From Tetrapyrgos nigripes (taxonomy: Eukaryota; Basidiomycota; Agaricomycetes; Agaricales; Campanellaceae): 64,000 bases of DNA. The translations under genes and the position numbers were made by a program. Numbering within the stretch: position 1 is the first letter of the stretch; each line of letters starts with the position of its first letter. The stretch lies in NCBI GenBank assembly GCA_013368315.1, contig JAACJM010000134.1, positions 1 to 64,000 on the forward strand, given 5' to 3'. Shown here piece after piece: positions 3,228-52,200 of the stretch. The notes under the pieces are model-generated. The model made no database searches, was not told the DNA's origin, and saw only the letters and a list, made by a program, of their open reading frames with translations.

Positions 3228-3791
3228 ACTGCAGCGCATATAGGTCGTCTATTACTGCAAATATCCCTTAAGATCCTCTCACCCTGAGCTTCAAAGCTAT
3301 TATGTTGTGGGTCAAAAACAGAAAGGAAGCAACTGTGAAAGTGAGCTGGTAGTACGACGATTTGCACAGGAAAAGGATCGGGATAATTTTGTGGCATTAC
3401 TAGCGAAGTATGGGTATGTGTCTTGAGTTTCTACTTGTGAATATCTTTCTCATGTCATGAACTGTCAAGTTGGGCTCCATTTGTGATGAGAAAACTCTGG
3501 GAACTCACCATTAATGGTGATGCATGTCTGGCTGTGTCATCTGCAGGTAGTCTCATATTCCTGTCTCTGTTTGTTATTTGTTTGATTTTCATATACCAAA
3601 AGCTGTATATACATGGCAGGAAATGATGAAGGAGCACCTACAGATGGATACTTATGTATCTCGACTAAGAATGGTAAATGTTCATTGGATTTGATTTAAT
3701 TTCCACTGACTATTAATCAAAGTACTTCAAGATTGGTGTATGGCATTGACTTATATCCTGTGGTTACAAGTATTGTACTGAAAAAAAACAG
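3228..3791. other. Intergenic or 5' region of the array-bearing gene
   Basis: A possible first exon starts at ATG 3613 (MAGNDEGAPTDGYLC...) and reaches a GTAAAT donor near 3673. Joining it to the next supported exon at 3792 with the obvious CAG acceptor puts it out of frame, so I do not assign it firmly. Nothing else is recognised. Confidence 0.35.
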
Positions 3792-6070
3792 GCGTTTTTT
3801 GAACAGACTCAAGCGATTCAACCAGTTGAATGGGAATGGAGGTACATATGGCATGGGAGGGGAAAATATGGGAATCTAAGACTCTTTGATGCAAATGGCA
3901 ACTTGGTTTTGGACCCTGAACAGCTGGAGAATGATCACATGGTTCTTCAAGAACCTACACAATTTGAGGTATGGAATCTGTACCATAAATTGATAGCTTA
4001 CCAAAGCATTGCAGCAACAAAGGGTCAACAAGTTTTGGACTACAATGTCTAGGCGGCAGGATATCACCAGAATGTATCTAGGTAAGTCAAAGACTCCTAT
4101 GAAGCATTTTGAGGATGGACAACATATCAGTGCTGCAGATATGATAGGTCTGCAGCAATTTATACAGGGACATATGGCAGAGCCAGTGAGTGTTTCCTCT
4201 GTTTCCAGCTGCGCCTTTCAGCTCTGTCTGTGCTGACTCCTGTGCCTTCTGGTCTCTGCAGTTGGTGAGTGCCTCTGTTTCCAGCTGCACCTTTCAGCTC
4301 TGTCTGTGCTGACTCCTGTGCCTTCTGGTCTCTGCAGTTGGTGAGTGCCTCTATTTCCAGCTGCGCCTTTCAGCTCTGTCTGTGCTGACTCCTGTGCCTT
4401 CTGGTCTCTGCAGGACGTGAGTGCCTCTGTTTCCAGCTGCGCGTTTCAGCTCTGTCTGTGCTGACTCCTGTGCCTTCTGGTCTCTGCAGTATGTGAGTGA
4501 CTCTGTTTCCAGCTGCACCTTTCAGCTCTGTCTGTGCTGACTCCTGTGCCTTCTGGTCTCTGCAGTTTGTGAGTGCCTCTCTTTCCAGCTGCGCCTTTCA
4601 GCGCTGTCTGTGCTGACTCCTGTGCCTTCTGGTCTCTGCAGTCTGTGAGTGCCTCTGTTTCCAGCTGCGCCTTTCAGCTCTGTCTGTGCTGACTCCTGTG
4701 CCTTCTGGTCTCTGCAGGACGTGAGTGCCTCTGTTTGCAGCTGCACCTTTCAGCTCTGTCTGTGCTGACTCCTGTGCCTTCTGGTCTCTGCAGGACGTAA
4801 GTGCCTCTGTTTTCAGCTGCGCCTTTCAGCTCTGTCTGTGCTGACTCCTGTGCCTTCTGGTCTCTGCAGGATGTGAGTGCCTCTGTTTCCAGCTGCGCCT
4901 TTCAGCTCTGTGTGTGCTGACTCCTGTGCCTTCTGGTCTCTGCAGGATGTGAGTGCCTCTGTTCCCAGCTGCGCCTTCCAGCTCTGTCTGTGCTGACTCC
5001 TGTGCCTTCTGGTCTCTGCAGGACGTGAGTGCCTCTGTTTCCAGCTGCGCCTTTCAGCTCTGTCTGTGCTGACTTCTGTGCCTTCTGGTCTCTGCAGGAT
5101 GTGAGTGCCTCTGTTTCCAGCTGCGCCTTTCAGCTCTGTCTGTGCTGACTCCTGTGCCTTCTGGTCTCTGCAGTTGGTGAGTGCCTCTGTTTCCAGCTGT
5201 GCCTTTCAGCTCTGTCTGTGCTGACTCCTGTGCCTTCTGGTCTCTGCAGGACGTGAGTGCCTCTGTTTCCAGCTGCACCTTTCAGCTCTGTCTGTGCTGA
5301 CTCCTGTGCCTTCTGGTCTCTGCAGTTGGCGAGTGCCTCTGTTTCCAGCTGCGCCTTTCAGCTCTGTCTGTGCTGACTCCTGTGCCTTCTGGTCTCTGCA
5401 GTTTGTGAGTGCCTCTGTTTCCAGCTGCGCCTTTCAGCTCTGTCTGTGCTGACTCCTGTGCCTTCTGGTCTCTGCAGTTTGTGAGTGCCGCTGTTTCCAG
5501 CTGCGCCTTTCAGCTCTGTCTGTGCTGACTCCTGTGTCTTCTGGTCTCTGCAGTTTGTGAGTGCCTCTGTTTCCAGCTGCGCCTTTCAGCTCTGTCTGTG
5601 CTGACTCCTGTGCCTTCTGGTCTCTGCAGGACGTGAGTGCCTCTGTTTCCAGCTGCACCTTTCAGCTCTGTCTGTGCTGACTCCTTTGGCTTCTGGTCTC
5701 TGCAGTCCGTGAGTGCCTCTGTTTCCAGCTGTGCCTTTCAGCTCTGTCTGTGCTGACTCCTGTGCCTTCTGGTCTCTGCAGGACGTGAGTGCCTCTATTT
5801 CCAGCTGCGTCTTTCAGCTCTGTCTGTGCTGACTCCTGTGCCTTCTGGTCTCTGCAGGATGTGAGTGCCTCTGTTTCCAGCTGCGCCTTTCAGCTCTGCC
5901 TGTGCTGACTCCTGTGCCTTCTGATCCCTGTGAAAATGAGCTAGGAGGAGAAGGAAAGTCACATCCTGCAGGATGATTCTGAAGACCATGATGAATGCAG
6001 GTTTGAAGAAGTCTATGATTCTGAGATTGATATAACACATAATATCCAAGAATCAGATATCAATTTATAA
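3792..6070 (+). CDS. Unrecognised spliced gene interrupted by a tandem intron array
   Basis: Three coding blocks join in one frame: 3792-3968 (59 codons), 4015-4185 (57 codons) and 5972-6070 (32 codons plus TAA). The first intron, 3969-4014, is only 46 nt (GTATGG...TTGCAG). The second intervening region is the 1786-nt array described separately. The protein contains EWEWRYIWHGRGKYGNLRLF, then a stretch with QQRVNKFWTTMSRRQDI, and finishes with an acidic tail starting DDSEDHDE. I recognise no domain. The upstream start is unresolved. Further possible downstream exons, such as one rich in MDVDS-type residues at about 6107-6218 and one at about 6643-6760, could belong to a longer isoform. Context is next to, and convergent with, a KDZ transposase, so this may be a transposon passenger gene. 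Confidence 0.55.
4186..5971 (+). repeat. 23-unit tandem array of intron-like 76-bp units
   Basis: Unit starts are 4186, then 4265 and every 76 bp exactly to 5861, with no indels among the internal units. Each unit is a 73-nt intron-like segment, GTGAGTGCC...GCTGACTCC...TCTCTGCAG, followed by three variable bases. The donor is GTGAGT in 21 units, GTAAGT at 4797 and GCGAGT at 5329. CTGAC is present in all 23, with its A 25 nt from the unit's intron end. CTGCAG closes units 1-22. Unit 1 is 3 nt longer and unit 23 runs to a different acceptor, CATCCTGCAG at 5971. The flanking exons are in phase 0. Read through as exon, each unit would meet TGA at the branch site. Confidence 0.95.
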
Positions 6071-7079
6071 CAGTCATTCTCTCATTTGGCCTAACCTCAT
6101 TCTCTAGCAATGGATGTAGATAGTCCTGAATCCTTCCAAGCACAAGATCATTCCATGGATGTTGACTCCACATCTATAGAGGATCATCCTAAGCTGTCAA
6201 ACTCCAGAAACTCCCAGGTGCTTCCTTTCTCCATTTGATATTATTGTTCAACTCAAAATTTCTCTCTAGCTCCTTTTTTAGTTTGAAACCATTTGTTACT
6301 CATGTGACTGTGTCATGGATGTTCCTATGGATATTGATAATGCTGGGATGTAGTTGACTGAATGTTACATGTTATGATAATGGGCATAGTATATAGATAT
6401 AAAAAAGAGTGCAATAAGAACACCCTATGGACTACCAATATTGTAATATGATTAGGTAAAGGCCACATGCCATATTACAATATTGCCAAGGCCTTGCCCA
6501 CACAGTGTTCTAGGTGAGATATTGTGTGCTATATATGGGCTTGGCAGAGCTCAGCCAGGTGATGAAAGGGATATTGGGGCATTTCATCAACAATAACAGT
6601 CACACAAACACTTTGTCTATTTGTTATTATTGCCAACACAGCTACTGATCCTCTTTGGGAAATCTCTTATGGAACAATGGGTATGGCCCCAGATCTTGGA
6701 GTAATGGATATATTGCAGATCCAGCAGTTCCAGGATATGGCTCCACATGCCTGTAAGGCTGCTTATATTTCATACTATTCACTGCTTTGCTAAGTTCTAA
6801 TGGTGCAGTTGGCTATTCCATTGACTTGATTGCCTTCTATGTTTGGTTCTGATATCCAGTGGTCTTGTGTTTGATTCCATGCAGTCTTTTTTTTCTAAGT
6901 ACACTGTTTTCTAGGTTTAAAGAGTTTGCTATCTAAATGCATTCTTCTGCCTCCTTGATAATGTCTCTGTCATCCTCTCTGAAGTCTAGAAAGAGAGTCA
7001 GCAATGACTGGATACAGTCAAGTACCTTGTAGGCATGGCTCCACAGCTTGTACCATCTTTCAGTGACCTGAGTTGCTCT
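6071..7079. other. Inter-gene region with possible 3' exons
   Basis: The stretch lies between an unrecognised plus-strand gene and the 3' end of a minus-strand KDZ pseudogene. Acceptor-like CTCTAG before 6107 and CAACACAG before 6643 precede short open segments with methionine/aspartate-rich and glutamine-rich content, but no complete splice model was found. The clearest structure is the hairpin annotated at 6436-6485. Confidence 0.35.
6436..6485. repeat. Perfect 15-bp hairpin
   Basis: CAATATTGTAATATG at 6436-6450 is repeated exactly inverted at 6471-6485 with a 20-nt loop. Weaker pairing (AGAACAC / GTGTTCT) extends outwards to roughly 110 bp in total. It could be a tiny decayed MITE or a structured 3' untranslated region. 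Confidence 0.7.
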
Positions 7080-10000
7080 TTCCTCTATGCATAGGCATTC
7101 AAGCCTTCTGCAAACTCAGCAGTAACACCTGTCCTCATACTCTCTAACTGCTTCATCCACCACTCTCCCTTCCAAATCAAGTAATCAACCATCCAGCACA
7201 ATTCCTCAGTTAGCAATATTAGCTTTTCCTGCCAATGAGATACCTGAGCTTGTGCCTTACACCACTCTACATGCAAATCATCAGGACAATCATGAGCCAA
7301 ATAAGAATAATGGCAATACACACCCTCTTGGTCCTCTGGATCACCTTCAGAAAGCTCCTTGGCCCTGATGTTGTACCAAATCCAGGAAAGATGACAAGTT
7401 TTCTCAACCCTTAGTCTGGACTTAATCATTTGCTCCTCTAATGTCTCCTTGTCTGATTCCTTGTCTGCAGCTGCTCCTACTCAGTTAATCCTTGCCTCTC
7501 TCTCTGTGCATTCCTCCTTACTCAACACTCTCTTGCTCAACCCTCTCACATCAAATTGTCCTCCCACTTCCCATGTCCCTGAAGCAAAAGGAGCACATCC
7601 CAGGCTAGCCAATAGCAGATCTTGCATGAATGAATCTGTATATCAACATCTCGTAAAACTCCACCAGCTAGTGTGTTATTGATCTGGCCTGTGACATTCC
7701 GTATCTTGTAACAGTTGGTGGCTGTCCTTGCTTGAAGGCCATCATGGACTCCCTCCACCTCATGCAATCAAGCTTCATCTTTGGCAATCCAGCAATGCAA
7801 GCAGCCCTCATTGCTGAAAGGGTACCACATTTGCAAGGAAGGAAAAGACAAAATTTTTCCAGAAGTGATGTGTCAGGATTTTCAATGTGATCCATATACT
7901 TAGCAGAGAGAATGTCAGATAAACAGGGCATGAGCATAGCCTGTAGGTTGCAGAATCATGCCATATGTGTGAGCAGCACCCCTCTGTCAGGGACCGTATC
8001 TGCAAAGACCTTGAAGTCAAGAATGCCAATAGGAAAATAAGGTTATGTCATCTGGAACAGTCTCGAGGTGTGGAACTGCTGGGCAGTTGTGAATATCTTG
8101 ATATTGTGGGAAAGATAAACCCAAAATAGAAGCAGGATGATAAGCACAGAGATAAAGCAGTTGTTCAGAAAAATACCAGGTTTGAAAATATTAGGACTGG
8201 GGTCTACGTAGATGTAGCTACTGTATATATACTGTAAGTATGAGTCAATACTAAATGCAAGTCAGAATGAGTCAGAGTAAATGAGTCAGTAAGACTCAAG
8301 TACATGTGTCACGAGGTAGACAAGTTGATATGAGTCAGAGTGAAGATAGGGGAAAGTGTGGAAAAATAGATACAATGCATGACATCCTCACTGCTGTGCA
8401 GTGGTAAGATACTTGTTTGTTAAAATGTAAAGCTCCAGACTTCACCTGTACCTAATTTAGCAAATTGAATATGTAAATGTGATAGCGCTTACTGCACTGC
8501 CTGAAGCTCAATGCCTTCTACCAGAAAGACGCATGCACTAGTTGCAAAAGCTGAAGTGCCTGGTTCAAGCATTGCCTTCTCTGCAATCATTTTGAGTTAA
8601 ACCTCTTTGAACTGGCCTTTCTCAGTGTCTGATTGCCCAGTGGCAAGTCCATCAGGAGTAGTTGAAATGGAGGAATAGGATAAGCAACACATACTGTGTT
8701 CCGCATCCTCATATGGATATGGATTATCATGGTCATTTTCCCAAGCTAGAACACTGTCCTTCCATCCATCCAATACCTCTCTTCTCAATGTGTTTGCCAA
8801 CTAAACATTGAACTGCTTGAAGTCCCAGTCATGTAAGTTGTACTCTTTTACCACAACAACTAGGTGTTTACCAATGTTTTCATCTGCATCAGAGATATAA
8901 TAATGAAATCAAATCCAGAATGAATAAAGCAAATGCACCTAATCAAGCTATAGTCTGCCAGTTGGCAAGGGTCATTGCACAGCTCCCTGGCCCCATCTGC
9001 TTTGCTTGAGCAGCAGCCTTATTGGATTGAGCTCATCCTTCCTCTACTGTCTCACCATGAGTTTCCCCACATCCTGGTGCATAATCAAATGAGAACTTGA
9101 AGTGGCACTTTGGTTTGTGTGCCTGTAAATGGAATTTGGGGATCATGAACTGAACCCCAGTCTTAGTGAACTTGACTTTGAAATTTTTGTCCATTTTGGC
9201 CATACTCCATTGACACACTATGTCATATGAAGTGACTAGTACCAAGTAATCCTCGCCATCAATTGTAGACCAGAAAATGAAGTCAATGTTACAATATCTG
9301 AAAAGATGGTTGTCCTCGGCATCAGAAAAAGACTCACCTTTCGCCTTTCTGCAAGTCTCCAATGCCGTTCTTCCACAGCAAATCCAACCCACTCCACTCA
9401 CATGAAGTCTCTTCACATTTTGCATGTTGGCAAGAGACATTGCTTGAGAACCTGAGCAAGAACTCATCTAATAAAATTGAGCACCTTCTATTACTAACTA
9501 GTGCAAGTCACTTACATTGGTGTCCACGACATGCTCCTCAATATGTTTTCTGTATGGGATACTATTCATCAAATATGCCCAGTCATCACCCAAATAGGAC
9601 TCTTGTCCATTGAAGAGACCACCTGGTTCTGGAGCTGGAAGTTTGCATCAATTGTCAAAAACAGACTGTCTAGAAAACTACACCAAGATCAGTGTTTTGT
9701 TATCAGAGTTTTGATAGCAAGTTGATAGACTTATGACAACTTGCCCTTATCCTTTCAATTCAGCAGCAGGTTCTTATCCAGACGAGGACAAGCAGGGCAA
9801 TCTAGTCCCAGCTCACCCTGACTCTTTCCCTCAATGCCACTGGCTGTTTTGCACATCTTCAGGTGTTGCCATTGGAACATTGTTCTAAGGAAAGCAGGAT
9901 AAAAGGGCTGGTATACTGTGGGTCAGCTACAGGCTCAGGAACACAGTAAGTAGAGCACTGACCTTTGGCTTTACACGTTGGTGACTATGAGTCATAATTT

Positions 10001-11546: not shown

Positions 11547-12560
11547 TCAGTACTTGGTATGCCCTCCTTTAGCCTTCAAAACAGCTTTAATCCTTCTAGG
11601 CATACTCCTGATCAATTTCTGACAATCCTCTTCTGTGATTTCCACCCACTTTTCTGCTGCTCTATCCCATATTTCCCAAACTCCAGATGGTGCTGTATCA
11701 TACTCGTTGAGTTTGCGTTTGAGGGTTGTCCAGAGGTGTTCAATGGGGTTTAGGTCAGGAGACTGAGCAGGCCAGCTCATGCAATGGATTTTGTTCTCCT
11801 CAAACCATTTGGTGGCTAGTTTTGACTTGTGTTTTGGATCGTTATCCTGCTGAAAAATGGCCATCTCCGGATCAACACCCAAACGATCCATGCTCTCCAG
11901 AAGATTGTTCTCCAAAATGTCCACATACTGCTCTGCATCCATCCTTCCCTCAACCTCTGCCATGTTTCCAGGTCCATCCCATCCCATACACCCCCACACC
12001 ATGATATTTCCTCCAAATTTGACTGTTTCCACCACATCGCTCTCTCCCATGGATTCACCTGTCCTACCCCACACAAACTGCTGCCCATCTGACCCAAACC
12101 GATTGATTTTAGTCTCATCTGACCATATAACCTGTTTCCAGTCATCCACAGTCCAGTCCTTGTACTTCTCTGCAAATTTTAAACGAGCCTTCCTGTGAGC
12201 TGCAGTGAGTTTGGGCTTTTTCTGTGGTTTCTTGGTGTCTACACCATGTTTGTGAAGGGAATTTTGCATGGTTTGGGTGGAGATAGCTTGGTCAAGAAGG
12301 GGATTGATGTTTCTGGCCACCTCTGCAGCGTTCCTGGCTTTCCCAGTGTTGATTTGTTTGATAGCAGCCCGTTCATCAGTGGTAGAGAGCTTCTTAGGGC
12401 GCCCTGCCTTATGGTTCTCCTTGTCAGGATACATCTCTTTGGCCAGAGAGGCAACCGTTGACTTGGATACTCCAGTTTGAGCAGAGATTTCCCTGGATGA
12501 AGCGCCAGTTTGGAGATGAGAGAGGACATTGTCTTTCTGAGTGGAGGTGATGGGTCTCAT
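11547..12560 (-). CDS. Tc1-like transposase, intact DD34E
   Basis: One uninterrupted frame of 337 aa from ATG 12560. The N-terminal third has two helix-turn-helix regions (an early segment around SREISAQTGVSKSTVASLAK, then the segment around ERAAIKQINTGKARNAAEVA) separated by a GRPKKLS hook-like motif. The catalytic domain has D in WSDETKI, D in FQQDNDPKHKS and E in DLNPIEHLW, with exactly 34 residues between the second D and the E. This is the canonical Tc1 DD34E spacing and length. It would cut and paste at TA sites. No damage is visible, and with both TIRs present this copy could be autonomous. The C-terminus ends GGHTKY. Confidence 0.95.
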   Translation of the reverse strand: MRPITSTQKDNVLSHLQTGASSREISAQTGVSKSTVASLAKEMYPDKENHKAGRPKKLSTTDERAAIKQINTGKARNAAEVARNINPLLDQAISTQTMQNSLHKHGVDTKKPQKKPKLTAAHRKARLKFAEKYKDWTVDDWKQVIWSDETKINRFGSDGQQFVWGRTGESMGESDVVETVKFGGNIMVWGCMGWDGPGNMAEVEGRMDAEQYVDILENNLLESMDRLGVDPEMAIFQQDNDPKHKSKLATKWFEENKIHCMSWPAQSPDLNPIEHLWTTLKRKLNEYDTAPSGVWEIWDRAAEKWVEITEEDCQKLIRSMPRRIKAVLKAKGGHTKY

Positions 12561-12719
12561 GATTTTATGGGGGCAATAGATGATCTGGATGTCCTTATAT
12601 ATGGTCTAGCTGACAGCTATGACATCATTATGATGTATACATTGCATCACTGTACAGCTCCACTTATGATGTCATCTATGAGGCATCACATTGTGCCAAT
12701 AGTATTGATAAAGTAGCAA

Positions 12720-14605: not shown

Positions 14606-14840
14606 TAAGACACTTGTAAGTCACAAGACATTACAATGACTTTACTGAAAAGTGACTATTTTGTAAGTCATCATGTATATCCAATGGACTTACAAGAGAC
14701 TTGTTGGATGGATTTGCAGTGCATGTCAATTAAGTAATACAGAAGGGCTTACTGAAAATTTACAGGATGTAATACAATGAATTCATTCAACCAGGTCAAT
14801 TAAATGTTACTAAATATAAATAGAGAGCTCAGGCTGGACT

Positions 14841-15786
14841 GTGTCTGCCTTGTCATCTTTGTCTGCTCAGTCTGTTAGGTCTGCCTTGTCTGCCTTGTCT
14901 GCCCCGTCTGCCCCATCTGTCTCATCTGCCTCGTCTGCCCTGTCTGCCTTGGGACTGTGTCTGCCTTGTCATCTTTGTCTGCTCAGTCTGTTAGGTCTGC
15001 TTTGTCTGCCTCGTCTGCCTCGTCTGCCTCGTCTGCTCCGTCTGCCTCGTCTGCCCCGTCTGCCCCGTCTGCCCCGTCTGCCCCGTCTGCCCCGTCTGCC
15101 CCGTCTGCCCCGTCTGCCCCGTCTGCCCCGTCTGCCTCGTCTGCCCCGTCTGCCTCGTCTGCCCCGTCTGCCTCGTCTGCCCCGTCTGCCTCGTCTGCCC
15201 CGTCTGCCTCGTCTGCCCCGTCTGCCCCGTCTGCCCCGTCTGCCCCGTCTGCCCCGTCTGCCCCGTCTGCCCCGTCTGCCTCGTCTGCCCCGTCTGCCTC
15301 GTCTGCCTCGTCTGCCTCGTCTGCCTCGTCTGCCTCGTCTGCCTCGTCTGCCTCGTCTGCCTCGTCTGCCTCGTCTGCTCCGTCTGCCTCGTCTGCTCCG
15401 TCTGCCTCGTCTGCTCCGTCTGCCTCGTCTGCCCTGTCTGCTCCGTCTGCCTCATCTGCCTTGTCTGCTCCGTCTGCCTCGTCTGCTCTGTCTGCCTCGT
15501 CTGCCTCGTCTGCCTCGTCTGCTCTGTCTGCCTCGTCTGCCTCGTCTGCCTCGTCTGCCTCGTCTGCTCCGTCTGCCTCATCTGCCTTGTCTGCCTCGTC
15601 TGCTCCGTCTGCCTCGTCTGCCCCGTCTGCCTCGTCTGCCTCGTCTGCTACGTCTGCCTTGTCTGCTACGTCTGCCCCGTCTGCTCCGTCTGCCTCGTCT
15701 GCCTCGTCTGCTCCGTCTGCCTCATCTGCTTCGTCTGCCTCGTCTGCTCCGTCTGCCTCGTCTGCCCCGTCTGCCTCGTCTGCCCC
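14841..15786 (+). repeat. 9-bp minisatellite, left arm
   Basis: Roughly 100 copies of a 9-mer (TCTGCCTCG, TCTGCCCCG, TCTGCTCCG and variants). The opening segment GGACTGTGTCTGCCTTGTC... is duplicated about 115 bp apart. Because the unit is 9 bp, most frames on both strands stay open and give Ser-Ala, Pro-Arg-Leu or Glu-Ala-Asp runs, which I do not regard as genes. Confidence 0.95.
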
Positions 15787-16003
15787 CACCAGTAGTTGTA
15801 ACTGCCATGCATAGTATACAGACAGTACTCACCCAACACAATGCGCCCCGTCTGCCTCGTCTGCCCCCACCAGTAGTTGTAACTGCCATGCATAGTATAC
15901 AGACAGTACTCACCCAACACAATGCGCCCCGTCTGCCTCGTCTGCCCCCACCAGTAGTTGTAACTGCCATGCATAGTATACAGACAGTACTCACACAACA
16001 CAA
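15783..16003 (+). repeat. 81-bp direct repeat, three copies
   Basis: A segment with CCCCCACCAGTAGTTGTAAC, then a CATGCATAGTATAC palindrome and CAGTACTCAC, repeats at 15783, 15864 and 15945. It links the 9-bp minisatellite with the interior of the foldback element. A single diverged inverse copy is present near 18830-18890 in the other arm. Confidence 0.85.
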
Positions 16004-18829
16004 TGCGTAGTCAACAGTCCTTTCTCTGTGTATACTTTGGGTGAGCATATGATGCATTGTATGGCTATTTTCATACTATGCATTGTGTGCACAATATTCT
16101 ACTATACCACGCATGGTATACCTTCAGTAAATTTGGCAGGTTTTTCCCACAGCTGGTAATTTGATGTGGCAGTAGGCAGGGCCTTAGGGGCCAGTAGGGC
16201 GGGTTTTTCTCACCTCTCAAAATTTGATAGGAGGTGCAGGCGGTCAGTAGGGGCCAGAATCTGCAAATGGAATAGGGGTAGTAGCTGTGGCTGGCTCAGA
16301 AAATGCAAAATAAATTCCTGGAGCCGGCAATGAAAAGTGATGTAAGTACATAAGAGGGTGTATTTTGGGTCGCTGAATCCAAATATCCAATTAAATTTGC
16401 AATAACTGCAATGGGTATAGAGATATGGCCAAAATACTGTCCAAAATACAGCAAAATAGCAGGATGGGTACTGGTCATTGCATCCAATCAGCTCTGATCA
16501 TTATGCAAATTGGTAGGATACTGCTTTTGGATTCTATAAACTTGGGAATAATATTTATTTTATTCTATAATCAATGTCTAGTGAGATATCCTCAATTTAC
16601 TCTGAAAAAAGTGAAAAATTTGGGATGGCCATGGACACTGCATGTTATAGCATCTAATATAATTATGGATATGCTTACAAGGATATTTTGTGTCCCTGAA
16701 TCAGAATATCCACTTGGATAAGCTCTATATTCTGTGGTTCTGGTGATATGGAATACTTACCCCTAAATATAGGTACCTGTGGCATCCACAAATATGCAAC
16801 TTATAAATTTGTTTGAGAGGGTGGATAAATGTTCATTAATACCCTCAATCATAATATAAAGTCATGTTTTTGTATCTTCAAAATACAAGACTCTATTTTC
16901 AATTTATTCCCCAAAAATTGCCACAAAAGTGAAAAAGAGGAATGGCCATGCACAGGGCATGGTGTGGCATCCAATATGATCATGGATATGCCTACTAAGA
17001 TAAATTTGGTTGTGGAATCCTAATATCCACTTGGATTGGCTCTATAGGCTATGGGTGCTCTGCTATTCAAGACTTACCCCCAAACGTGGGTACCTGTGGC
17101 ACCTGCAAATACATACTTTATAAAATAGGTTGAGTGGGCTTAAAAGTATTGATTGATGTCCCAAACAGTAATATGAAATCATATCACCTATATCTCTAAG
17201 TTCTAAGACTCTATTCTCAATTTATTCCCCAGACAGCAAAGATAGCCCTAATTTTCACCTTCATTGGCACATATACCTATCTTTTGGCTTTGAGACTGGC
17301 ATTCTGACTACCCTCCCATCATTTTAAGCCATAATCCTTGTGTTAATGGCAGTTTGGATGTCCTCACTGAAAGACATGTTCAGATATAGCCTTAAGTGCT
17401 ATAAGTATCATTATGTGCAACTCAGTTTGACTTTAACCTGGTGCATGTACATAGAACATCTGCTAGATATTTTGGATGGCTGATTATCTTTTAAGTGGTA
17501 CTAAAAGATGAAATACATAGTATGAGTGCCTCCAGTAACCTCTGGAATGAGATATGCCCATGTATATGGTTCCAAAAGGTACTATTTTCGCTTTTTGAGT
17601 AATAAATTGGGAATAGAGTCTTGGATCTTGGGGATATGGAACATATGACCTCATATTCTTGTTTGGGGCTTTGATAAACCGTTATCCACCTATCTCCACA
17701 GTTTTTTAAGATACATATTTACAGGTGCCATAGGTACCCATGCTTGGGAGTAAGTCTTCAATAGCAGAGTAGCCACAGCTTATAGAGCCAATCTAAGTGG
17801 ATATTTGGATTCAAGGACCCGGACTACTTTAATAGACATATACATAGCTGTATTGGATGCCATACCATGCCCTCTCCATGTCCATCTCACTTTTTTCGCT
17901 TTTGTGGCAATTTTTGGGAAATAAATTGAAATTAGAGTCTTGTATCTTCAAGATATGAAGAATATGACTTTATATTCTGATTGAAAGTATTAATGAACAT
18001 TTATCCACCCTCTCAAACAAATTTATAAGTTGCATATTTGTGGGTGCCACAGGTACCTATATTTAGGAGTAAGTATTCCATATCACCAGAACCACAAAAT
18101 ATAGAGCTTATCCAAGTGGATATTCTGATTCAGAGACACAGGATACCCTAGTAACCATATCCATAACTATATTAGATGCTATAACATGTAGTGTCCATGG
18201 CCATCCCAAATTTTCACTTTTTTGAGAGTAAATTGAGGATACCTCACTAGACATTGATTATATAATAAAATAAATGTTATTCCCAAGTTTATAGAATCCA
18301 AAAGCAGTATCCTACCAATTTGCATAATGATCAGGGCTGATTGGATGCAATGGCCAGTACCCATCCTGCTATTTGCTGTATTTTGGACAGTATTTTGGCC
18401 ATATCTCTATAGCCACTGCAGGTATTGCGAATCTGATTAGATATTTGAATTCAGTGACCCAAAATACATCCTCTTATATACTTATATCACTTTTCATTGC
18501 TGGCTCCAGGAATTTATTTGGCATTTTCTGAGCCAGCCACAGCTATTACCCCTATTCCATTTGCAGATTCAGGGCCCTATCGACGGCCTGCACCTCCCAT
18601 CAAATTTTGAGGCGTGAGAAAAACCCGCCCTACTGCCCCCTAAGGGGCACAGTGGCTTACTACGCATGGTATGCAATACTACGCATGGTATAGGGCTGGC
18701 ACAGTGGCTTACTATGCGTGATATGCAAAAATAAAATGCGATATACTATGCATGGTATGGGGTGGAACAGTGATTCACTATGCATAGTATCATACCATAA
18801 TATAGGTACAGATAAGCCTCTACAAACTA
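16004..18829. other. Interior of the foldback element without genes
   Basis: AT-rich sequence arranged as two inverted halves around about 17420. Recurrent words include GGTACCTGTGGCA, ATGGCCAAAATACTGT and AATAGAGTCTTG. Clusters of near-palindromic ATACTATGCATAGTAT-like sites occur at 16060-16120 and 18655-18800. No open frame above 100 codons has recognisable content. The same words recur in the palindrome at 61833-64000. Confidence 0.75.
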
Positions 18830-18887
18830 CGCATTGTGCCCAGCAGAGTACTATCAGTATACTATGTGTAGCAGTTACAGCTACAGC

Positions 18888-20165
18888 TGCTGCCCCGTCT
18901 GCCTCGTCTGCCCCGTCTGCCCCGTCTGCCTCGTCTGCCCTGTCTGCCTCGTCTGCCCCGTCTGCCCCGTCTGCCTTGTCTGCCTTGTCTGCTCCGTCTG
19001 CCTTGTGTGCCTCATCTGCCTCGTCTGCTCCGTCTGCCTCGTCGGCCTCATCTGCTCTGTCTGCCTCGTCTGCTCGGTCTGCCTCTTCTGCCTCGTCTGC
19101 CTCGTCTGCACTGTCTGCCTCGTCTGCACTGTCTGCCTCGTCTGCTCCGTCTGCTCCGTCTGCCTCATCAGCCCCGTCTGCCTCGTCTGCCTCGTCTGCA
19201 CCGTCTGCCTCGTCAGCTCCGTCTGCTCCGTCTGCCTCGTCAGCCCCGTCTGCCTTGTCTGCCTTGTCTGCCCTGTCTGCCTTGTCTGCCTTGTCTGCCC
19301 TGTCTGCCTTGTCTGCTCTGTCTGCTTCGTCTTCTTCGTCTGCCTCGTCTGCCTCGTCTGCCTCGTCTGCCTCGTCTGCCTCGTCTGCTCCATCTGCCTC
19401 GTCTGCCCCGTCTGCCTCGTCTGCCCCGTCTGCTCCGTCTGCCCCGTCTGCCTCGTCTGCCCCGTCTGCTCCGTCTGCCTCGTCTGCTCTGTCTGCCTCG
19501 TCTGCCTCGTCTGCTCTGTCTGCCTCGTCTGCCTCGTCTGCTCTGTCTGCCTCGTCTGCCTCGTCTGCTCCATCTGCCTCGTCTGCCTTGTCTGCCTCGT
19601 GTGCCTTGTCTGCTTCGTCTGCCTCGTCTGCTTCGTCTGCCTCGTCTGCCTCGTCTGCCTCATCTGCTCCGTCTGCCTCGTCTGCCTCATCTGCTCCGTC
19701 TGCCTCGTCTGCTCCATCTGCTCCGTCTGCCTCGTCTGCTCCGTCTGCTCCGTCTGCCTCGTCTGCACCGTCTGCACCGTCTGCCTTGTCTGCCCCGTCT
19801 GCCTCGTCTGCACCGTCTGCACCGTCTGCCTCGTCTGCCCCGTCTGCCTCGTCTGCCTCATCTGCTCCGTCTGCCTCGTCTGCCTCATCTGCTCTGTCTG
19901 CCTCGTCTGCCTCATCTGCTCCGTCTGCCTCGTCTGCCTCATCTGCTCTGTCTGCCTCGTCTGCTTGGTCTGCCTCGTCTGCTCGGTCTGCCTCGTCTGC
20001 TCGTCTGCTCGGTCTGCCTCGTCTGCTCGTCTGCTCGGTCTGCCTCGTCTGCTCGGTCTGCCTCGTCTGCTCGGTCTGCCTCGTCTGCCTCGTCTGCACC
20101 GTCTGCCTTGTCTGCTCCGTCTGCTCCGTCTGCCTTGTCTGCTGCCCCGTCTGCCTTGTCTGCCC
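18888..20165 (+). repeat. 9-bp minisatellite, right arm, same-sense block
   Basis: About 140 copies of the same TCTGCCTCG-type 9-mer, in the same orientation as in the left arm, although the surrounding arm is inverted. Two 8-bp slips (TCTGCTCG) near 20000-20035 shift the frame. The block is longer than its left-arm counterpart. Confidence 0.95.
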
Positions 20166-20400
20166 CGCAGACGAGGCAGACGAGGCAGACAAAGCAGACC
20201 TAACAGATTGAGCAGACAAAGATGACAAGGCAGTCCCAAGGCAGACACGGCAGACGAGGCAGATGGAGCAGACGAGGCAGATGGAGCAAATGAGGCAGAT
20301 GAGACAGATGGGGCAGACGGGGCAGACAAGGCAGACAAGGCAGACAAGGCAGACCTAACAGACTGAGCAGACAAAGATGACAAGGCAGACACAGTCCAGC
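20166..20400 (-). repeat. 9-bp minisatellite, right arm, inverted block
   Basis: At 20166 the repeat flips to CGAGGCAGA orientation, the orientation expected for the mirror image of 14841-15000. It ends in GACACAGTCCAGCCTGAGCT, the inverse of the left-arm entry at about 14829-14848. Confidence 0.9.
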
Positions 20401-21640
20401 CTGAGCTGTCTATTTATATTCAGTAACATTTAATTGACCTGGTTGAATGAATTCATTGTATTACATTCTGTAAATTTTCAGTAAGCCCTTCTGTATTACT
20501 TAATTGACATGCACTGCAAATCCATCCAACAAGTCTCTTGTAAGTCCATTGGATATACATGATGACTTACAAAATAGTCACTTTTCAGTAAAGTCATTGT
20601 AATGTCTTGTGACTTACAAGTGTCTTAATGTGACCAGTCTGTCACACTGTATATTCTCCATTTAGCATGCAGGTTTTTTCCAGAGACTTACGAGATAGAC
20701 TTTTTAAACCTGCATCTTGTAATTCCCTTGTAAAGTCACAAGTCTTTCTAGGGTATTACTGTGACACAGCTGTCCCTCCGTAAATTCAGTGTAAATATGA
20801 GCAGTCTTACCCAAGACTTTCAAGTTCTACCTTCTGGTAAGTTCTCTGTAAATTTTCCTTGGTTTACAAATTGTCTTACTGTGACATTATCTCACACTGA
20901 AATACCCTGGTATTTCAGTTCTGTTTTACAAGAAGACATACTGTGACAAAAAAGTCACCTTGTAATTCCACTGTATGCTCTTCAATGCTATACTGTGACA
21001 AAGCCTCACACTGAAAGTCCATGGTATGTCCTTGCAGCTTACAATGGTCTTTCAGAATAGTCCTCATTTTTTGTCTATTTTGTAATACACTTGTAAGTCA
21101 AGCCAACTTACATATTGATTGGTTCCCATAATACTCTTGTAATACTCCAGTAAGGCTGAGGATTTACCAGTGTTTGTAGCAAATCTTTCTTGTAATTCCT
21201 TCATAATACAGCTAGTCTTACAAGTGTATTACTGTGACTTGATTGTCACTTTGTAAATTTCCTGCAGATTTTGCTTCCTTGTAAGTCCTTTGTAAATCTC
21301 TCTTGCCTTACTGTTTGTCATACTGTGATTATCTGTCACACTGAAATACTCCAGTATTTCCTATCTGTCTTACTACATGACATATTGTGACAAAAAGTCA
21401 CCCTGAAATTCCTGTGTAATTCCACAGTATATCCACCAAGGGTATACAGTGACAGCAAGTCACACTGAAAGTCCATGGTATTTCTTTATGACTTACAATG
21501 GTCATACAAGGTTGTTCTAATTTTTTCTGTCTCTTGTAATACTAATGTATGACAAGGAGTCTTACATATTGATTGGCTTGGTGTAATACTCTTGTAAAAC
21601 CTCAGTAAAGCAGAGGATTTACAAGTGTTTGCACCCAGTG

Positions 21641-22224: not shown

Positions 22225-23124
22225 TCAGGACAGGTTCCTAACATAATATAGAGTAGAGAGCCAATGACTGTTTGGTATTTCTGATGAAGAACAGTTTTTT
22301 ATAACATAGAATCCTGTAGGTAATGGAGTAGCAGAAGCTTTCGCATTTTGCATACCACATTGTTCGATTACTTTTTTGAGATAAGCACATTGATTAAGAT
22401 GGATCTTGCTGCCTTTCCTGACAATGTTCATCCTAAGAAGATCCCTGCATTCCCATTTCTTCATAAATTTCACTTTTAGTTCGAGAACTAATTGTCTGTT
22501 TGCTCCACAGAATAGGGCATCATCAACGTAAACAACAGCAATGACTATTTGACCGTTTTTGTTATATACAAAGATTCCGGCATCAGAATTGATTTGTTTG
22601 ACTTATTGAGACCTTTCCACCAAGCAAGACATGCTTGCTTAAGTCCATATAGAGCACGAAGCAACCAGATGACTTTGCGCTCTTTTCCAGGTTCTATAAA
22701 ACCTTCCAGTTGTTCCATATAGATCTCTTCTTTGAGTATGCCATATAGATAGGCACTACGAACATTGACACCTGAGATGTGCCAATTATTGAGGGCTGCC
22801 AAAGCAAAGATAAGGTGCACCGTCTCGAAGCAAACAACTGGAGAGAAGACTTGATTGAAGTCTAGACCTTCAATCTGAGAAAAACCTTTAGCGATGAGTC
22901 TCCCCTTTTTTTGACCACAGTTTTGATGTCAAAGACCCATTGGTTTTTAATGACTCCCCCTTCCCAGCATAGTTGTGCCTGATCTTCATAAAGATTGCTG
23001 TTTCCATCTGTTTTAGATGCAGAGTTCTCATTGTCTGATGTGGACATTTGTGGCCTGAGACCTTCATTTGTCCTGTGGAACTAGGACTGGGATCCTGTGG
23101 TTCTGCTGGTTTAGCTGTTGCCAT
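22225..23124 (-). pseudogene. Copia reverse transcriptase
   Basis: Broken into several frames. Recognisable parts are the N-terminal segment with IKNQWVFDIK at about 22960, VNVRSAYLYGILKEEIYMEQ at about 22700-22770, RALYGLKQACLAWW at about 22620-22670, and the catalytic YVDDALF at about 22513-22533 with both aspartates intact. Frameshifts and stops separate these parts, so no full-length enzyme is encoded. Confidence 0.85.
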
Positions 23125-33755: not shown

Positions 33756-34430
33756 GTGGTACTTGTCACCTTACTTTTGGACAACATTCAGTGTAGATGG
33801 ACAGTCATTTGATGCCTGATGTCAAGTTGAATTAAAAGAAGCTTCTTTCAGTTCTCATGTTCTCATCCTCTTTGTCATCTTGCTGGCATCTCCAATTGCA
33901 AGTCTACTCAATCCGCACCCATGTCTATCTTTAGCATCAATGTTGTCGACACGGTCTTCCTGACATTCTCTTATCCTCTTTGCCAATATAATAATACACA
34001 CTCTATTTCATCATTGCTCACACTCATTCAGCACTAAGCCCGCAATCCTTATTCCATTTTAATCCCTCTTAATGTTCATTAATGGATGTCAATAGTTTTA
34101 TTGACTGTTCTTACTGATCATAAGTAGACCTAATATATATCTACTTGCTGTATGTGTTTTTGACCACAACCAGTTTGAGAAATTGAGATCAAAAACCACT
34201 AGTGAACGAGTGATAATCAACCTACCAGCTAGGTTACCTGGAATCCCATTTTTGAATCACTTTCAACCTACGAAAGCCAGAACCGCTCCCAGAAACCTAT
34301 AGGTTGAAATTGTTGGAAATAAGTTAGTTATTAACCTAGGCCAGATAGGTTGACCCACAACCTATAGGTCAACCTACTCTGCTATGTTGATTTTTTAGGT
34401 TGAAAAATGACCAAGCTGGACTTCACAGTG
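33756..34430. other. Right end of the CACTG element
   Basis: Non-coding. About nine copies of AGGTTGA/TCAACCT lie between 34220 and 34410 in both orientations, some as CCTATAGGT palindromes. The TIR ends at 34430. Confidence 0.65.
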
Positions 34431-34433
34431 TGG

Positions 34434-35040
34434 GAGGGGAACTGGGACAATTTCACCCATGCACTCAAAGTTCAGTTTGGGGTAGCAAACAAGCAACAGC
34501 TGGCCCAGAACAAGCTTGAGGCATTGAGGCAGGGAGATAAAACAGTCTTGGAGTTCTCTCAGATCTTCAAGATGTGGGTGGAGAAGACTGGGTTTTCAGA
34601 TATGGACCTCCAGTATAAATTCTGGAAGTGCCTTCATAAGGATCTACTGTTCCCATTGGCAAATGTAGAGCTAGGACAGAAGGAGGCCCCTAAGAACCTG
34701 GACAAGTTGATTGACCAAGGGCTTCACATGGAACAGACCCTAGCTGAACTCCTAGGAAGACCTGTCACTGGCCCTATCCCATCCCTCTCCAAATCCTCTT
34801 CTGGATGTTGACCCTAATGCCCATACTGAGCATCCCCAAGGTAACAGATGCACTTTCATGGACTACCAGAAGGCAATGCAGGGGGTGCTGCTATGGCTGT
34901 GGCTCCAGAGATCACCTGAAACAAGATGGAAACCATGGATGTGACAAGTGTGACTACTGTGAGAGGATGGGTCATTGCTCCTCTGTTTCTCAGAACCAAT
35001 ACATGGGTCAGCCCAGAGGAGGAGGCTGAAGCAGACAATG
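34434..35040 (+). pseudogene. Gypsy gag, 3' part, with zinc knuckle
   Basis: Continues gag from 29875: EGNWDNFTHALKVQFGVANK, QNKLEALRQGDKTVLEF, and the segment ending LAELLGRPVTGPIPS. After a frameshift near 34811 a cysteine-rich region follows at about 34880-35010 (CYGCGSRDHLKQDG, CDKCDYCERMGH), consistent with a nucleic-acid-binding knuckle of the capsid protein. Confidence 0.8.
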
Positions 35041-48090: not shown

Positions 48091-49021
48091 CTGTCGGGAA
48101 CGTCAGGCACGGCGACCAAAGTGAAAGGATAGAGACTCACCACTTGACCATAGACTCCAGAGGAGACGATGCAGGAGACCATAGTTCATTGTCCCCTACG
48201 AGGATCAAAATATGAGGTGATAACCAAAATTCCTTCAACCCGGCTGCTAAAACCTATCAATGTCGGGCACGGCGACCGAAAGTAAGAACATATAAGCCAT
48301 ACCACCTGTCCATGGACTCTGGCTACCCTAGCCTCGGTGGAGGAGGGCAGTGTTCATCGTCTGCAACAATGATGAGAGTAAGAGAGAAAGATGGAAAGTA
48401 TGACAAAGCTGGTGACACATGGTCCGTGTCGGCCAAAATTGTGCACAACTTTTGGGCGCTTGTGGGCGCTAAAGCATTCCTGACCATTGCTAAGCTGGTG
48501 ACACATGGACTGTATGGTCCGCGTCGGCCAGAAATTGTGCACAACGTCCGGTCAGAGGAGGAGATGACGGAGAGGGCAGAGTTCATTGTCTCCAACGATG
48601 ATGAGAGCAAGATATGAGTGATATAGTCATGCAACGTGTAGCACAAGTCTATTAACCTGGATGGAAAACGATATTAACGAACGTCAGCAACAGCAACCAA
48701 AGCAAAACGATAAGAGCTTACCATTTGGCAATGTACTCTGGCTACTGCGTAGTGTCCGACGGAGGAGGGCTGAGTTCATCGTCCCGACGATGATGAGAGT
48801 AAGAGAGAAAGATGGAAAGTATGACAAAGCTGGTGACCCATGGATTGTATGGTCCGCGTCGGCCAGAATTGTGCACAACTTTTGGGTGCTTGTGGGCGCT
48901 AATGTGTTCCTGACCCAAGCGTCTAGACCATACAAGCGCCCAAAAGTTGTGCACAATTCTGGCCGACGCGGACCATACAATCCATGGGTCACCAGCTTTG
49001 TCATACTTTCCATCTTTCTGT
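48091..49021. repeat. Diverged tandem repeat units
   Basis: Three related units start near 48091, 48262 and 48680. They share CAGGCACGGCGACCAAAG-like starts, CTCACCACTTGACCATAGACTC-like middles and TGATGAGAGTAAGAGAGAAA. Embedded in them, a segment GGTCCGCGTCGGCCAGAATT...TTGTGCACAAC occurs directly at about 48420 (variant), 48510 and 48850 and inverted at about 48975. No coding function is apparent. Confidence 0.75.
48806..49020. repeat. Strong inverted repeat, arms about 86 bp
   Basis: Left arm about 48806-48891 (AGAAAGATGGAAAGTATGAC ... AACTTTTGGGTGCTTG) pairs almost perfectly with about 48934-49020, leaving a loop of about 42 nt. One mismatch was noticed (GTGCT against GCGCT). Transcription would give a long stable hairpin. 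Confidence 0.9.
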
Positions 49022-49278
49022 CAAACTTCGATGTAGCTGGACTATCCTGCCTGTGCCTCCTCCCCTTCCTCCCTGTGAGTATACGTCTCTTCAATGCTTA
49101 GAATAGGCCTTCTAGTAGTGTAGAATGCATAAGGATGAGATTTGCCAGTGAAAACACTGGGACAGTCGTCCATAGATGACCATTGAGAGCTTTTTGCCTT
49201 GCCAAAAAAAAAAAAAACCTAAACGTTATGCTGACGGTTTGTCTCCCAGACACCTCGCCATGAAACCCTTGCCTCGCC

Positions 49279-52200
49279 ATGAACCCCTTCATTGATAACG
49301 AAGCCGCACTCTCTAGAGAAGATGAAAACGAAGAACTCGAAGACGAGGTAGATGATTTGATTCAGGATAGGGAGGAAGAGGAGGAGGCAGAGGAAAACCG
49401 GTGGTACGGTGAAGAAGGTCAGTTCTTCTGCGATTCCTGCATTCTCCAAGTCCACTGACCCATCATATCAGCCTTCCGTGATGCAAACTCAGAACTAGAA
49501 GACGACAAGCAGCCAGAACAGACACAACTCTGGGCGGCTTTCCTTCAGCGGTGTAAGACGCGTGCCAAACGTGGCGTTCCTCAAGATAACGCTCTTTCCG
49601 AAGTCAGCAATGAGATACTGCATATCTCGTTGCTCAGACAGACCAATGCTCCTGCCTTCTGGCGGGTAAAGTGCAAAGTGAGTCAATTTACAGAGCATCT
49701 AGTATGTCACTTTACTAACCTACGTCTCAATGTAGCCTGGTTCCGAATATGAGCTGGTCTCTGCACTGTACGAACGTTTCACTCCCACGTCTGAAGAACC
49801 ACACATCCCCTCACCCGACGGCATTCTCCCCTACCATCGGCTTTACCGCTGCGCATTGCAACACCTGCCAAAAATCCCCATGTGTCTCGTTACCGTGATG
49901 CCTTCAATGCTGTGCGACGAGGTCTTCACCACGGTAGTGAAATTCCTCAGATACATGCTGAGTTGGCCCGAATACTTCAGGAAGATTACACAGGGGAAGA
50001 CTGGGATGCTGCTGTGTCAGCTACCGTCCTGGAAGACGACGTCGCTGTCCAGCCTGCTTTGGATACAATAAATTCTCTGGAACGACAGTGGTTAGCGCGA
50101 AACGACACTGTCTCTCCAGTGATTGGCCAGCTTGTCCAGCCCTCAGTTTGCCCAACTCCTGCCTCTGCACCACCTACCTCATCTTTCAGCTCAGTCGCTC
50201 CATGGTTTACTAGCACGAACGCCACTTCTTCTACCGACACCACTTCTTCCACCGACACCACGTCTTCCACCATCCAATGTCCATGGTCCTCTTCCAGGGG
50301 TTCAGAGACAGCTGCCCCAACTTTATCGCTGAAAAGTCCTGGGACTCCAATTGCAACTAGTAAACAAGTCGATGTCATAGACGTCGAACCCCTGTTTCTG
50401 AGAACAAGCTCAGTCATTAAAGAGCAGGAGAATGATATGGACTGGTTGTGGTCAGAGCATGTTGCTTCTCGACCTGCGACTCCAAGTCCAACCGGTAACA
50501 CCACCAACACCCCTGTTGTTACCAAGACTACTTCTACTCCAGCTTCCCCCACTGGCATGATCAATGCAACATCACCATCATCTGAACATTCCCTGACCTC
50601 CACTGGCCTCCCAACAACGACCTCGACTACGTCTCAGCCCAACACAATAACTTCCTTTTCTCAATATCCCACTGGACTCGCCAATACAACCTCAACCATG
50701 TCTCAGCCCAATGTGGTAACTTCATCCTCTCAACGTCCCATGTCCCCCACTGGCCTTCTTCCCAATACCTCCTCGACCATGTCCCAGGTCAACACAGTAG
50801 CTTCATCCTCTCGACAACTCCAGATCCCCACTGCTGACCCCTCAGCGTACACGCAAACAGCCGGTCTCATCTGATCCGTCTTGTGTGTTTCAGGCTTGTC
50901 TGTGCATGGATCAAATTGTTGTTTCACATGGTGAGGCTCCTATTTATGGAGTCATCATCGACATTTCTGGAGAGACCTGTACTGTCATGGAACTTTATGG
51001 TCATCAAAACTATAGGGTAAGTCTAACGTTTGATTTCTGTTTTACACCTAAATTGACTAATTTCATAAGACTCACCAATTCCACGTCAACACTTGCAAGC
51101 GTGTTGGATCTCGAGACTCAAATGGTCTTCATCGTCTGCCCTGGATTGAAGAGCACGTCTCCTGCCTGAAAAGCGCTCGGAAATACACCCATTACACCGG
51201 GTTCATCACCAATGTGTTCTTGCCCAAACCATATACCAAAGTCGAGGTTCATTTTCCTGAACAGAACGAGTCGGTCATATTGCGACACGACGACGTTGTT
51301 CAGTTTGCGTGAGTACTATATACACTCTTTACAATGGGTCTTTACTGACTTGGATTGATGAAAACAGTTCGCGAATGTATCTCAAGGACATACTGCCTCT
51401 TGGACCCCATCAGCAACAATTTCGTCAAGCTGATTGGGATCAGGACGACAAGGACCAGCAGGGAGAAAAGCTGCAGACCCCCATGAAGTCACCGAATACA
51501 CCCTGGAAAAATGTCCAAGTCATTGTGATCCGTGGTCCAAAGAGATCATACCAAGGGACTGTCATCAATGTCATGCGAGGAGACACCCTGAAACTCGCAG
51601 ATGGGGGTCTGGCTTACCCTAGTGGATTGCGGATCACCGTCAGCCTCAGTCAGGTTATGACCTATGAGCATGGAAACGCAGCGAGATTGGAACTGGATTA
51701 TAGCTGGATTCGAGATGCGAAGTGAGTGACTATGTTTTTTCCCCCTCTCATTGCTTCAGCACTGACTGTGTGAGCAGTACTGGACAAGGATTGAACGACG
51801 CGTACCCGTTGAAAGTTTCTGAGCAGTACTATGAACCCAAGTTCGCTGTGGAAGCTATCAAGATTCCAAAACACGCCTCAACTCCAAAGGAATCCACTCT
51901 TCAGCGAGGTCTGACTCCGCCTCCACCCGAGAAAGAAGTGTGTCGTGATGGCAGTGCTTGGGACCCCACCTCTCGGAACTGGACTTGCTGTTGTTGTCCA
52001 AGCCTCTACCGACGTGGATGCACCCTCAACTCGATGGGAAAACATTCCTAGCCATTTACCGACCCAAAGACCGACCTGAAAAAGACCGGATCCATGCTAC
52101 TCCCATCGTGAAGGACAAGAAGGTGCAGCTATGATACGGCAAGAGCAGACCGTTCCTTGTGGATCCTGACCAGGTGCATCTGAAGCCAGTGAAAGCAACT

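Follow-up and report, generated by a model that had tools for sequence, protein, structure and literature searches.

In this study, we analysed a stretch of 64,000 nucleotides from the basidiomycete Tetrapyrgos nigripes (GenBank assembly GCA_013368315.1, contig JAACJM010000134.1, positions 1 to 64,000, forward strand; hereafter the window) and followed up a tandem array near its start, in which intron-like units stand head to tail with three bases between them. The results showed that such arrays occur at five loci of this genome and that the three spacer bases vary far more than the rest of the unit in four of them. We favour, at a probability of roughly 0.68, the reading that the units are real introns and the spacers single-codon microexons; joined, these codons would encode a peptide that is hypervariable in sequence and variable in length, and the introns would double as frame-safe recombination units. 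An earlier sequence-only reading had described the array of the window; the hypervariability of the spacers and the four paralogous arrays go beyond it.

Tandem intron-like units in the window

Tandem Repeats Finder (TRF) placed a 76-bp repeat at 4196-5930, with 22.8 copies and 94% matches, and a script parse of donors, branch sites and acceptors resolved 23 introns; both agree with the sequence-only reading, which had counted 23 complete tandem introns with a 76-bp period. The 23 donors comprised 21 GTGAGT, one GTAAGT and one GCGAGT, and the donor-to-donor distance was 76 in 21 cases and 79 once. The CTGAC motif lies at unit positions 45-49, with its branch A 25 nt upstream of the intron end, and exactly 3 nt separate each acceptor from the next donor (22/22 junctions); the parse bore out the earlier description on both points. 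CTGCAG had been given as the end of every unit, which holds for 22 of the 23 and fails for unit 23. The regularity of the array excludes a chance pattern. In a control of 202,713 bases on both strands (the window and 14 further loci, the masked arrays being inside the total), no strict-consensus intron pair with a 3-nt gap was found outside the arrays; one pair had a gap of 4 nt and one a gap of 8 nt.

Five array-bearing loci in one genome

A DNA search of the assembly around the window (98.5 Mb, 587 contigs) with one intron body returned at least 206 matches, from five candidate places, and a search with a stretch of one of these loci, L023, returned 94 matches at those five loci again. The array-bearing loci are the window (contig C131), L021 (C221), L022 (C83), L023 (C103) and L024 (C180). 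Their arrays hold 23, 65, 40, 23 and 60 introns, respectively (parsed units plus end units), and 22, 64, 39, 21 and 58 parsed spacers, 204 in total. Two extra spacers at array ends, TGG in L024 and GGT in L023, were recognised by inspection; the parsing pattern missed them because their sites are weaker. Donor-to-donor distances indicated that no unit was skipped between the first and the last parsed donor of any array. A protein search of the genome, with 23 candidates scored, gave at least 25 matches, all within the five array loci; therefore, no array-free member of the family was detected.

The flanking blocks of the window, L021 and L022 are 91-97% identical. In the upstream part of the gene, L023 and L024 are approximately 68% identical to these three loci and approximately 75% to each other, and the intron bodies also differ between the two array families (L023/L024 and window/L021/L022). 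We compared the flanks using matches longer than 400 bases at E <= 1e-30, with the window represented by its first 30 kb, starting at the contig end. The matches among the window, L021 and L022 stop within about 6-10 kb, array included, and because of this short extent the three loci were treated as paralogues instead of haplotypes. Matches to Cpn60/TCP1 numbered 37, spread over 11 contigs and unsorted by subunit, and these chaperonin counts lend weak support to an undoubled assembly. An exact 20-base piece of the unit occurred in 0 viral and 0 prokaryote contigs (near relatives are perhaps excluded there). Separately, a 2.5-kb stretch is common to L022 (7174-9559) and a distant part of the window (48456-50902), at 91% identity.

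In a parse whose pattern itself requires splice sites, all 199 parsed units carried a GT or GC donor and an AG acceptor, as expected of U2-type spliceosomal introns. The donors were 192 GTGAGT, 3 GTAAGT, 2 GTCAGT, 1 GCGAGT and 1 GTGGGT, and the acceptors 198 CAG and 1 TAG; a CTRAY branch motif was present in 193/199. Six parsed introns were of other length (72 nt twice, 70 nt, 65 nt and 54 nt twice) and kept the 3-nt spacer. At L023, the most diverged array, minor alleles occupied 9/255 cells at the splice positions, which were chosen by the author (GTGAGT, CTGAC and GCAG), and 87/986 cells elsewhere in the body (p = 0.0036 by Fisher's test, p = 0.018 by column permutation). This signal is read as past constraint because L023 may be a decaying copy. 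Stwintrons were considered and rejected as a description of the arrays: the units lie head to tail with acceptor and donor 3 nt apart, and none interrupts the splice signals of another.

Hypervariable spacers beside uniform intron bodies

Diversity was measured on full-length 76-bp units only (n = 21 in the window, 63 in L021, 38 in L022, 17 in L023 and 54 in L024), with units of other length and terminal units left out. Mean pairwise diversity per site in the spacers was 0.581 (window), 0.640 (L021), 0.612 (L022), 0.441 (L023) and 0.635 (L024), against 0.032, 0.033, 0.026, 0.137 and 0.033 in the bodies, a ratio of 18-23 fold in four arrays and 3.2 in L023. The three spacer positions were the three most variable of all 76 in four of the five arrays, and two of them ranked in the top three in L023. 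Units with identical bodies often carried different codons: 304/404 such pairs, which are non-independent, differed overall (window 5/8, L021 127/169, L022 63/71, L024 109/156; none occur in L023). Within the three longest multi-unit blocks of near-identical sequence in L021, 2/57 spacer bases and 0/1387 body bases differed, and the three blocks shown for L024 had no difference in either. Adjacent identical codons exceeded shuffled expectation in L021 only (19 vs 7.0).

The 204 spacers comprise 25 codons for 16 amino acids, with K, N, T and A absent. None is a stop codon, compared with 8.2 expected when positions were shuffled within loci; among 137 distinct units the count was 0 vs 6.5 expected (p = 0.0002), a test whose strength hinges on the independence of the units. 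Target-site duplications were rejected as an account of the spacers, as neighbouring spacers differ. Two further observations concern their composition: A is nearly absent from base 1 (4/204) and base 3 (2/204) in all arrays, and the amino acids used, 5 to 10 per locus, form a small set that is particular to each locus.

An open host gene across the array

Joining eight exons of the host gene gave one stop-free frame in the window (265 aa), L021 and L022, and the upstream exons of L024 that we examined were also open. At all five loci the upstream exon, the spacers and the downstream exon are in one open phase, and the downstream exon ends in identical phase. Joined without splicing, the units contain stops in all three frames. 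The codon runs read LLDYFSDDDDDDLDLFFFDSDD in the window, FPSLDRPFFPRRRRCDL... in L021, FPFSSFDLLDLFFLY... in L022, LLHGLLLDWSLLLYVILLVDW in L023 and SFELFRRSSWEFRRSSWEF... in L024. Phase 0 holds for all parsed donors and acceptors and for the outer exons, so any choice of donor and later acceptor keeps the frame, a single large removal included. The phase of the outer exons, the frame kept by one large or by stepwise removal, and a neighbouring intron of 46 nt had been noted from the sequence of the window and stand.

Two boundaries needed revision. The sequence-only reading had the array run from 4186 to 5971; the start is retained, and the end probably lies at 5944, with GAGCTAG as the last acceptor rather than the CTGCAG whose last base is 5971, because an 18-nt stretch with this CTGCAG is missing from L021, which nevertheless keeps GAGCTAG and the frame. 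The two candidate starts of the downstream exon, 5945 and 5972, are both in frame. The upstream exon, which had been drawn as 4015-4185, keeps its end, and by comparison with L023 and L024 the region is probably two exons separated by an intron (4015-4081 and 4139-4185); in the window, unspliced read-through of 4015-4185 is also open.

For the window and L022, the nonsynonymous and synonymous divergences over six upstream exons (573 nt) were dN 0.0133 and dS 0.0721, values that fit purifying selection; the pairs with L021 were less constrained (dN/dS 0.0462/0.0861 and 0.0462/0.0675). A Pfam scan of the 265-aa joined exons gave no family above cut-off, and no NACHT/NB-ARC or WD/ANK/TPR; one sub-threshold match was disregarded (17.6 bits vs a cut-off of 29.8). 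In one protein collection, none of 192 candidates was a homologue at E <= 0.001.

Proposed mechanism and alternatives

We propose that each 76-bp unit would be a short spliceosomal intron plus a one-codon microexon, in a coding gene of a small orphan family. The introns would leave one by one, each step adding one codon and rebuilding the next donor; we infer stepwise removal because 3-nt exons are too small to define both neighbouring introns at once. The mRNA would then contain some 22-64 such codons in a row, hypervariable both from unit to unit and from locus to locus. Being homogeneous, the introns would provide long homology for unequal crossing-over and conversion, and whole-unit crossover shifts inside introns could lengthen, shorten and reshuffle the codon run with the frame intact. 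The identical or near-identical blocks in L021 and L024, together with array lengths of 23, 65 and 40 beside flanks of 91-97% identity, point to whole-unit duplication. Diverse spacers beside homogenised introns suggest either diversifying selection, as in fungal NLR repeats, or raised local mutation; selection on the peptide is the most likely source of the codon diversity by our analysis, and a locally raised mutation rate is less likely. The peptide may serve in recognition or binding. A bolder and rather doubtful extension would make this a diversity-generating gene, in which introns are recombination handles and interchangeable splice units and codons are the payload, yielding a combinatorial in-frame peptide library through shuffling over generations and splice choice in the cell, perhaps with hypermutation targeted to the codons.

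Several alternatives were weighed against the reading of introns with coding microexons. It is unlikely that the array is one large intron with a minisatellite inside it, removed by a single 4185-to-5945 splice or in several steps that retain no codon, the inner sites being relics of the origin of the repeat unit from an intron. Any donor could pair with any later acceptor, the 1.76-kb jump is in frame, and the array would have a simple origin in the tandem duplication of a segment with an intron; however, this explanation, like that of a pure delay element, leaves the variable three spacer bases and the zero stops in 204 unexplained, and it accounts neither for the roughly 97% identity of the rest of the unit beside these spacers in four arrays nor for the lower variability of the L023 splice positions. 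Genomes with short introns favour pairing across the nearest intron, which also counts against it. Still less probable is that the bodies are the functional product, as a small RNA or as a splicing delay, chromatin or recombination element, with the spacers irrelevant. The high similarity of the bodies within four arrays would fit, but we found no Rfam match at 3900-6300 (E <= 0.1), three intron bodies gave ordinary, shuffle-like fold z-scores (-0.32, -0.04 and 0.63), results on which a small-RNA role was rejected, and the zero stops and the open frame at five loci would go unexplained. Serial insertion at successive codons of an introner-like element or a reverse-spliced intron, the spacers being old coding sequence, would explain variable spacers and uniform introns together, and fungi do have introner-like elements (PMC4457414). 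We consider it the most improbable of all, since two versions of the unit matched only the five arrays, among the matches listed in a search that skipped common words, rather than dispersed sites; the multi-unit blocks of L021 and L024 and the differing array lengths indicate duplication of whole units, and an exact 3-nt spacing would be unexpected.

Two other alternatives concern what the codons do, and both are possible, if clearly weaker candidates. The array might be spliced and translated with codon diversity that is neutral, if short conversion tracts or strong constraint keep the bodies uniform while the spacers escape or mutate faster. The lack of a nonsynonymous excess among one-step codon pairs fits this, as do the single-base steps that connect the codon types in four of the five loci (TGG stands isolated in L023). 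On the other hand, the bodies do change between array families and so are not fixed, any conversion that makes bodies uniform should drag the linked spacers along, and the contrast between spacer and body reaches 18-23 fold in four arrays. Alternatively, the locus might be a combinatorial isoform generator, including or skipping microexons randomly or under control to give many in-frame peptides. The 3-nt phase-0 spacers and near-identical sites keep every subset in frame, 22 codons would arithmetically allow 2^22 subsets, and the tandem dual-specific splice sites of UBC are spliced stochastically (PMC10809524). As general background, the splice sites of short introns usually pair across the intron itself, and this would instead speak for inclusion of every microexon. 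Such isoform choice would tentatively add to the reading of introns with coding microexons without excluding it.

A number of points weigh against the favoured reading itself. The removal of each unit from RNA and the translation of the codons are predictions from the DNA, and the comparison set consists of five loci of one genome, each with an array. Dozens of 3-nt exons may be hard to splice faithfully, and we know of no precedent for so many in tandem. Some units have poorer signals: CTRAY is missing from 4/20 units in L023 and 2/57 in L024 (the latter number equals that of L024's two 54-nt introns, which lack CTGAC), and the end units outside the parse have weaker sites, with acceptor AAG in L024 and donor GTGGAT in L023. 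The L023 splice-position test compares 17 full-length units that share ancestry, and the third spacer base of L023 hardly varies (0.118, under the body mean). Exon limits were placed by eye with the help of the five-way alignment, conserved splice sites and the frame, so the finding that the flanking exons are open does not count as an entirely independent test. At L023 2909-2986, an extra base in an A run shifts the frame of an upstream exon, reflecting a decaying copy or an assembly error; the window copy, given its AT donor, may be truncated or impaired 3' of the array, so two of the five copies may be impaired. The depletion of stops was not significant when codon types were counted once per locus (n = 49, 1.7 expected, p = 0.13), and the missing TAG spacers could alternatively reflect avoidance of a second acceptor. 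Finally, one-step codon pairs split into 11 synonymous and 50 nonsynonymous, against 90:331 expected (p = 0.62); the nonsynonymous share is not raised, and selection on amino acids is therefore not demonstrated.

Features of the window

Features of the array and its host gene in the window
Feature	Position	Strand	Basis or remark
Upstream coding exon, start side approximate	3278..3413	+	stop-free joined frame and five-locus alignment
Coding exon	3470..3546	+	five-locus alignment and frame
Coding exon	3603..3673	+	five-locus alignment and frame
Coding exon, best conserved block, matched at 5/5 loci	3792..3968	+	frame and protein search
Ordinary 46-nt intron of the host gene	3969..4014	+	
Coding exon	4015..4081	+	alignment and frame
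Coding exon directly 5' of the array, phase 0 end (..GHMAEP)	4139..4185	+	alignment and frame
Array of 23 introns and 22 single-codon spacers	4186..5944	+	repeat finder and donor/acceptor parse
Intron lengths: unit 1, 76-nt body; units 2-22, 73 nt; unit 23, 84 nt	4186..5944		
22 spacers, one per 76 bp	4262..5860	+	would read LLDYFSDDDDDDLDLFFFDSDD if every intron is removed
Coding exon 3' of the array, enters phase 0 (EEKESHILQDDSED...)	5945..6056	+	alternative start 5972 in frame
Donor of the intron 3' of exon 5945..6056: AT (GT in L021 and L022)	6057..6058	+	
Coding exon (AMDVDSPES...)	6108..6217	+	alignment and frame

Elsewhere in the window, two long 9-bp minisatellites of the GTCTGCCTC type lie at 14820-16010 (+) and 18660-20413 (-) and are open in several frames; they seem to be copies of one element facing opposite ways, and a peptide in the flank is common to both. 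A long open frame of a Tc1/mariner-type transposase (DDE_3, HTH_Tnp_Tc3_2) occupies 11547-12605 (-), and a similar second copy is split over two frames at 60229-61235 (-), the domain scan having covered the first copy. Further matches were to a KDZ transposase (9033-9467, -), a copia-type reverse transcriptase (RVT_2; 22545-22928, -) and a retrotransposon gag (34404-34811, +).

Comparison with known systems

Among the titles and abstract beginnings listed from the open-access literature, we found no description of tandem introns with single-codon spacers. Provided that the units are spliced, the arrays would, to the extent of this literature, be a gene architecture not described before, in which each copy of a homogenised intron repeat brings along one hypervariable codon. 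They would also test how small exons can become where dozens occur together, each splice restoring a 5' site that includes 3 nt of newly joined exon, and would suggest that introns are retained as a recombination substrate for fast, frame-safe protein change. The encoded tract would belong to a class that gene finders probably overlook, given the difficulty of calling 3-nt exons.

In schistosome micro-exon genes (MEGs), exons measure 3-81 bp, and protein variation through splicing and duplication has been proposed (PMC10526429). The arrays resemble them in having very small exons within a gene, at the DNA level 22, 64, 39, 21 and 58 parsed one-codon phase-0 exons; MEGs have varied exon lengths and introns of up to 5 kbp, whereas the exons here are one codon long and the tandem introns near-identical at 73 nt. 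The splicing of minute exons has been reported: a 1-nt exon is spliced in CYP621A of Fusarium, a filamentous fungus (PMC12940212), as are 1-nt exons in plant APC11 and VPS55 (PMC8831610), where it was argued that the small size of microexons prevents spliceosomes from assembling on the two neighbouring introns simultaneously. Those microexons are single and conserved, whereas the ones described here are many and hypervariable.

Fungal NLR repeats (Podospora HNWD and others) show concerted evolution, repeat-number polymorphism and codons under positive selection (PMC4986451). Our arrays share with them homogenised tandem repeats with diversity concentrated at defined codons, more weakly in L023; in the NLR genes a coding WD, ANK or TPR repeat holds the variable codons, whereas here the repeat is the intron and the variable codon the whole exon. 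Like polyubiquitin UBC, whose isoforms vary stochastically in repeat number (PMC10809524), the arrays consist of tandem repeats bordered by splice sites; unlike UBC, with its coding monomers and dual-specific sites, they repeat introns, and their acceptors and donors are distinct sites with 3 nt in between. SNHG14 (SNORD116 x 29, SNORD115 x 48) likewise contains long tandem runs of introns carrying related sequence (PMC11608373), but it is a snoRNA host with intronic snoRNAs, and single-codon exons are not described in the portion of the text examined. Stwintrons, which splice consecutively, and introner-like elements are also multiplied, similar fungal introns (PMC8469720, PMC9024468, PMC4457414); as far as is known, the former are nested and the latter scattered and invasive, whereas these units are head to tail with single-codon gaps. 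The nearest systems, namely MEGs, UBC, SNHG14 and the fungal repeats, thus each have a property in common with the arrays, and none is known to us to combine them.

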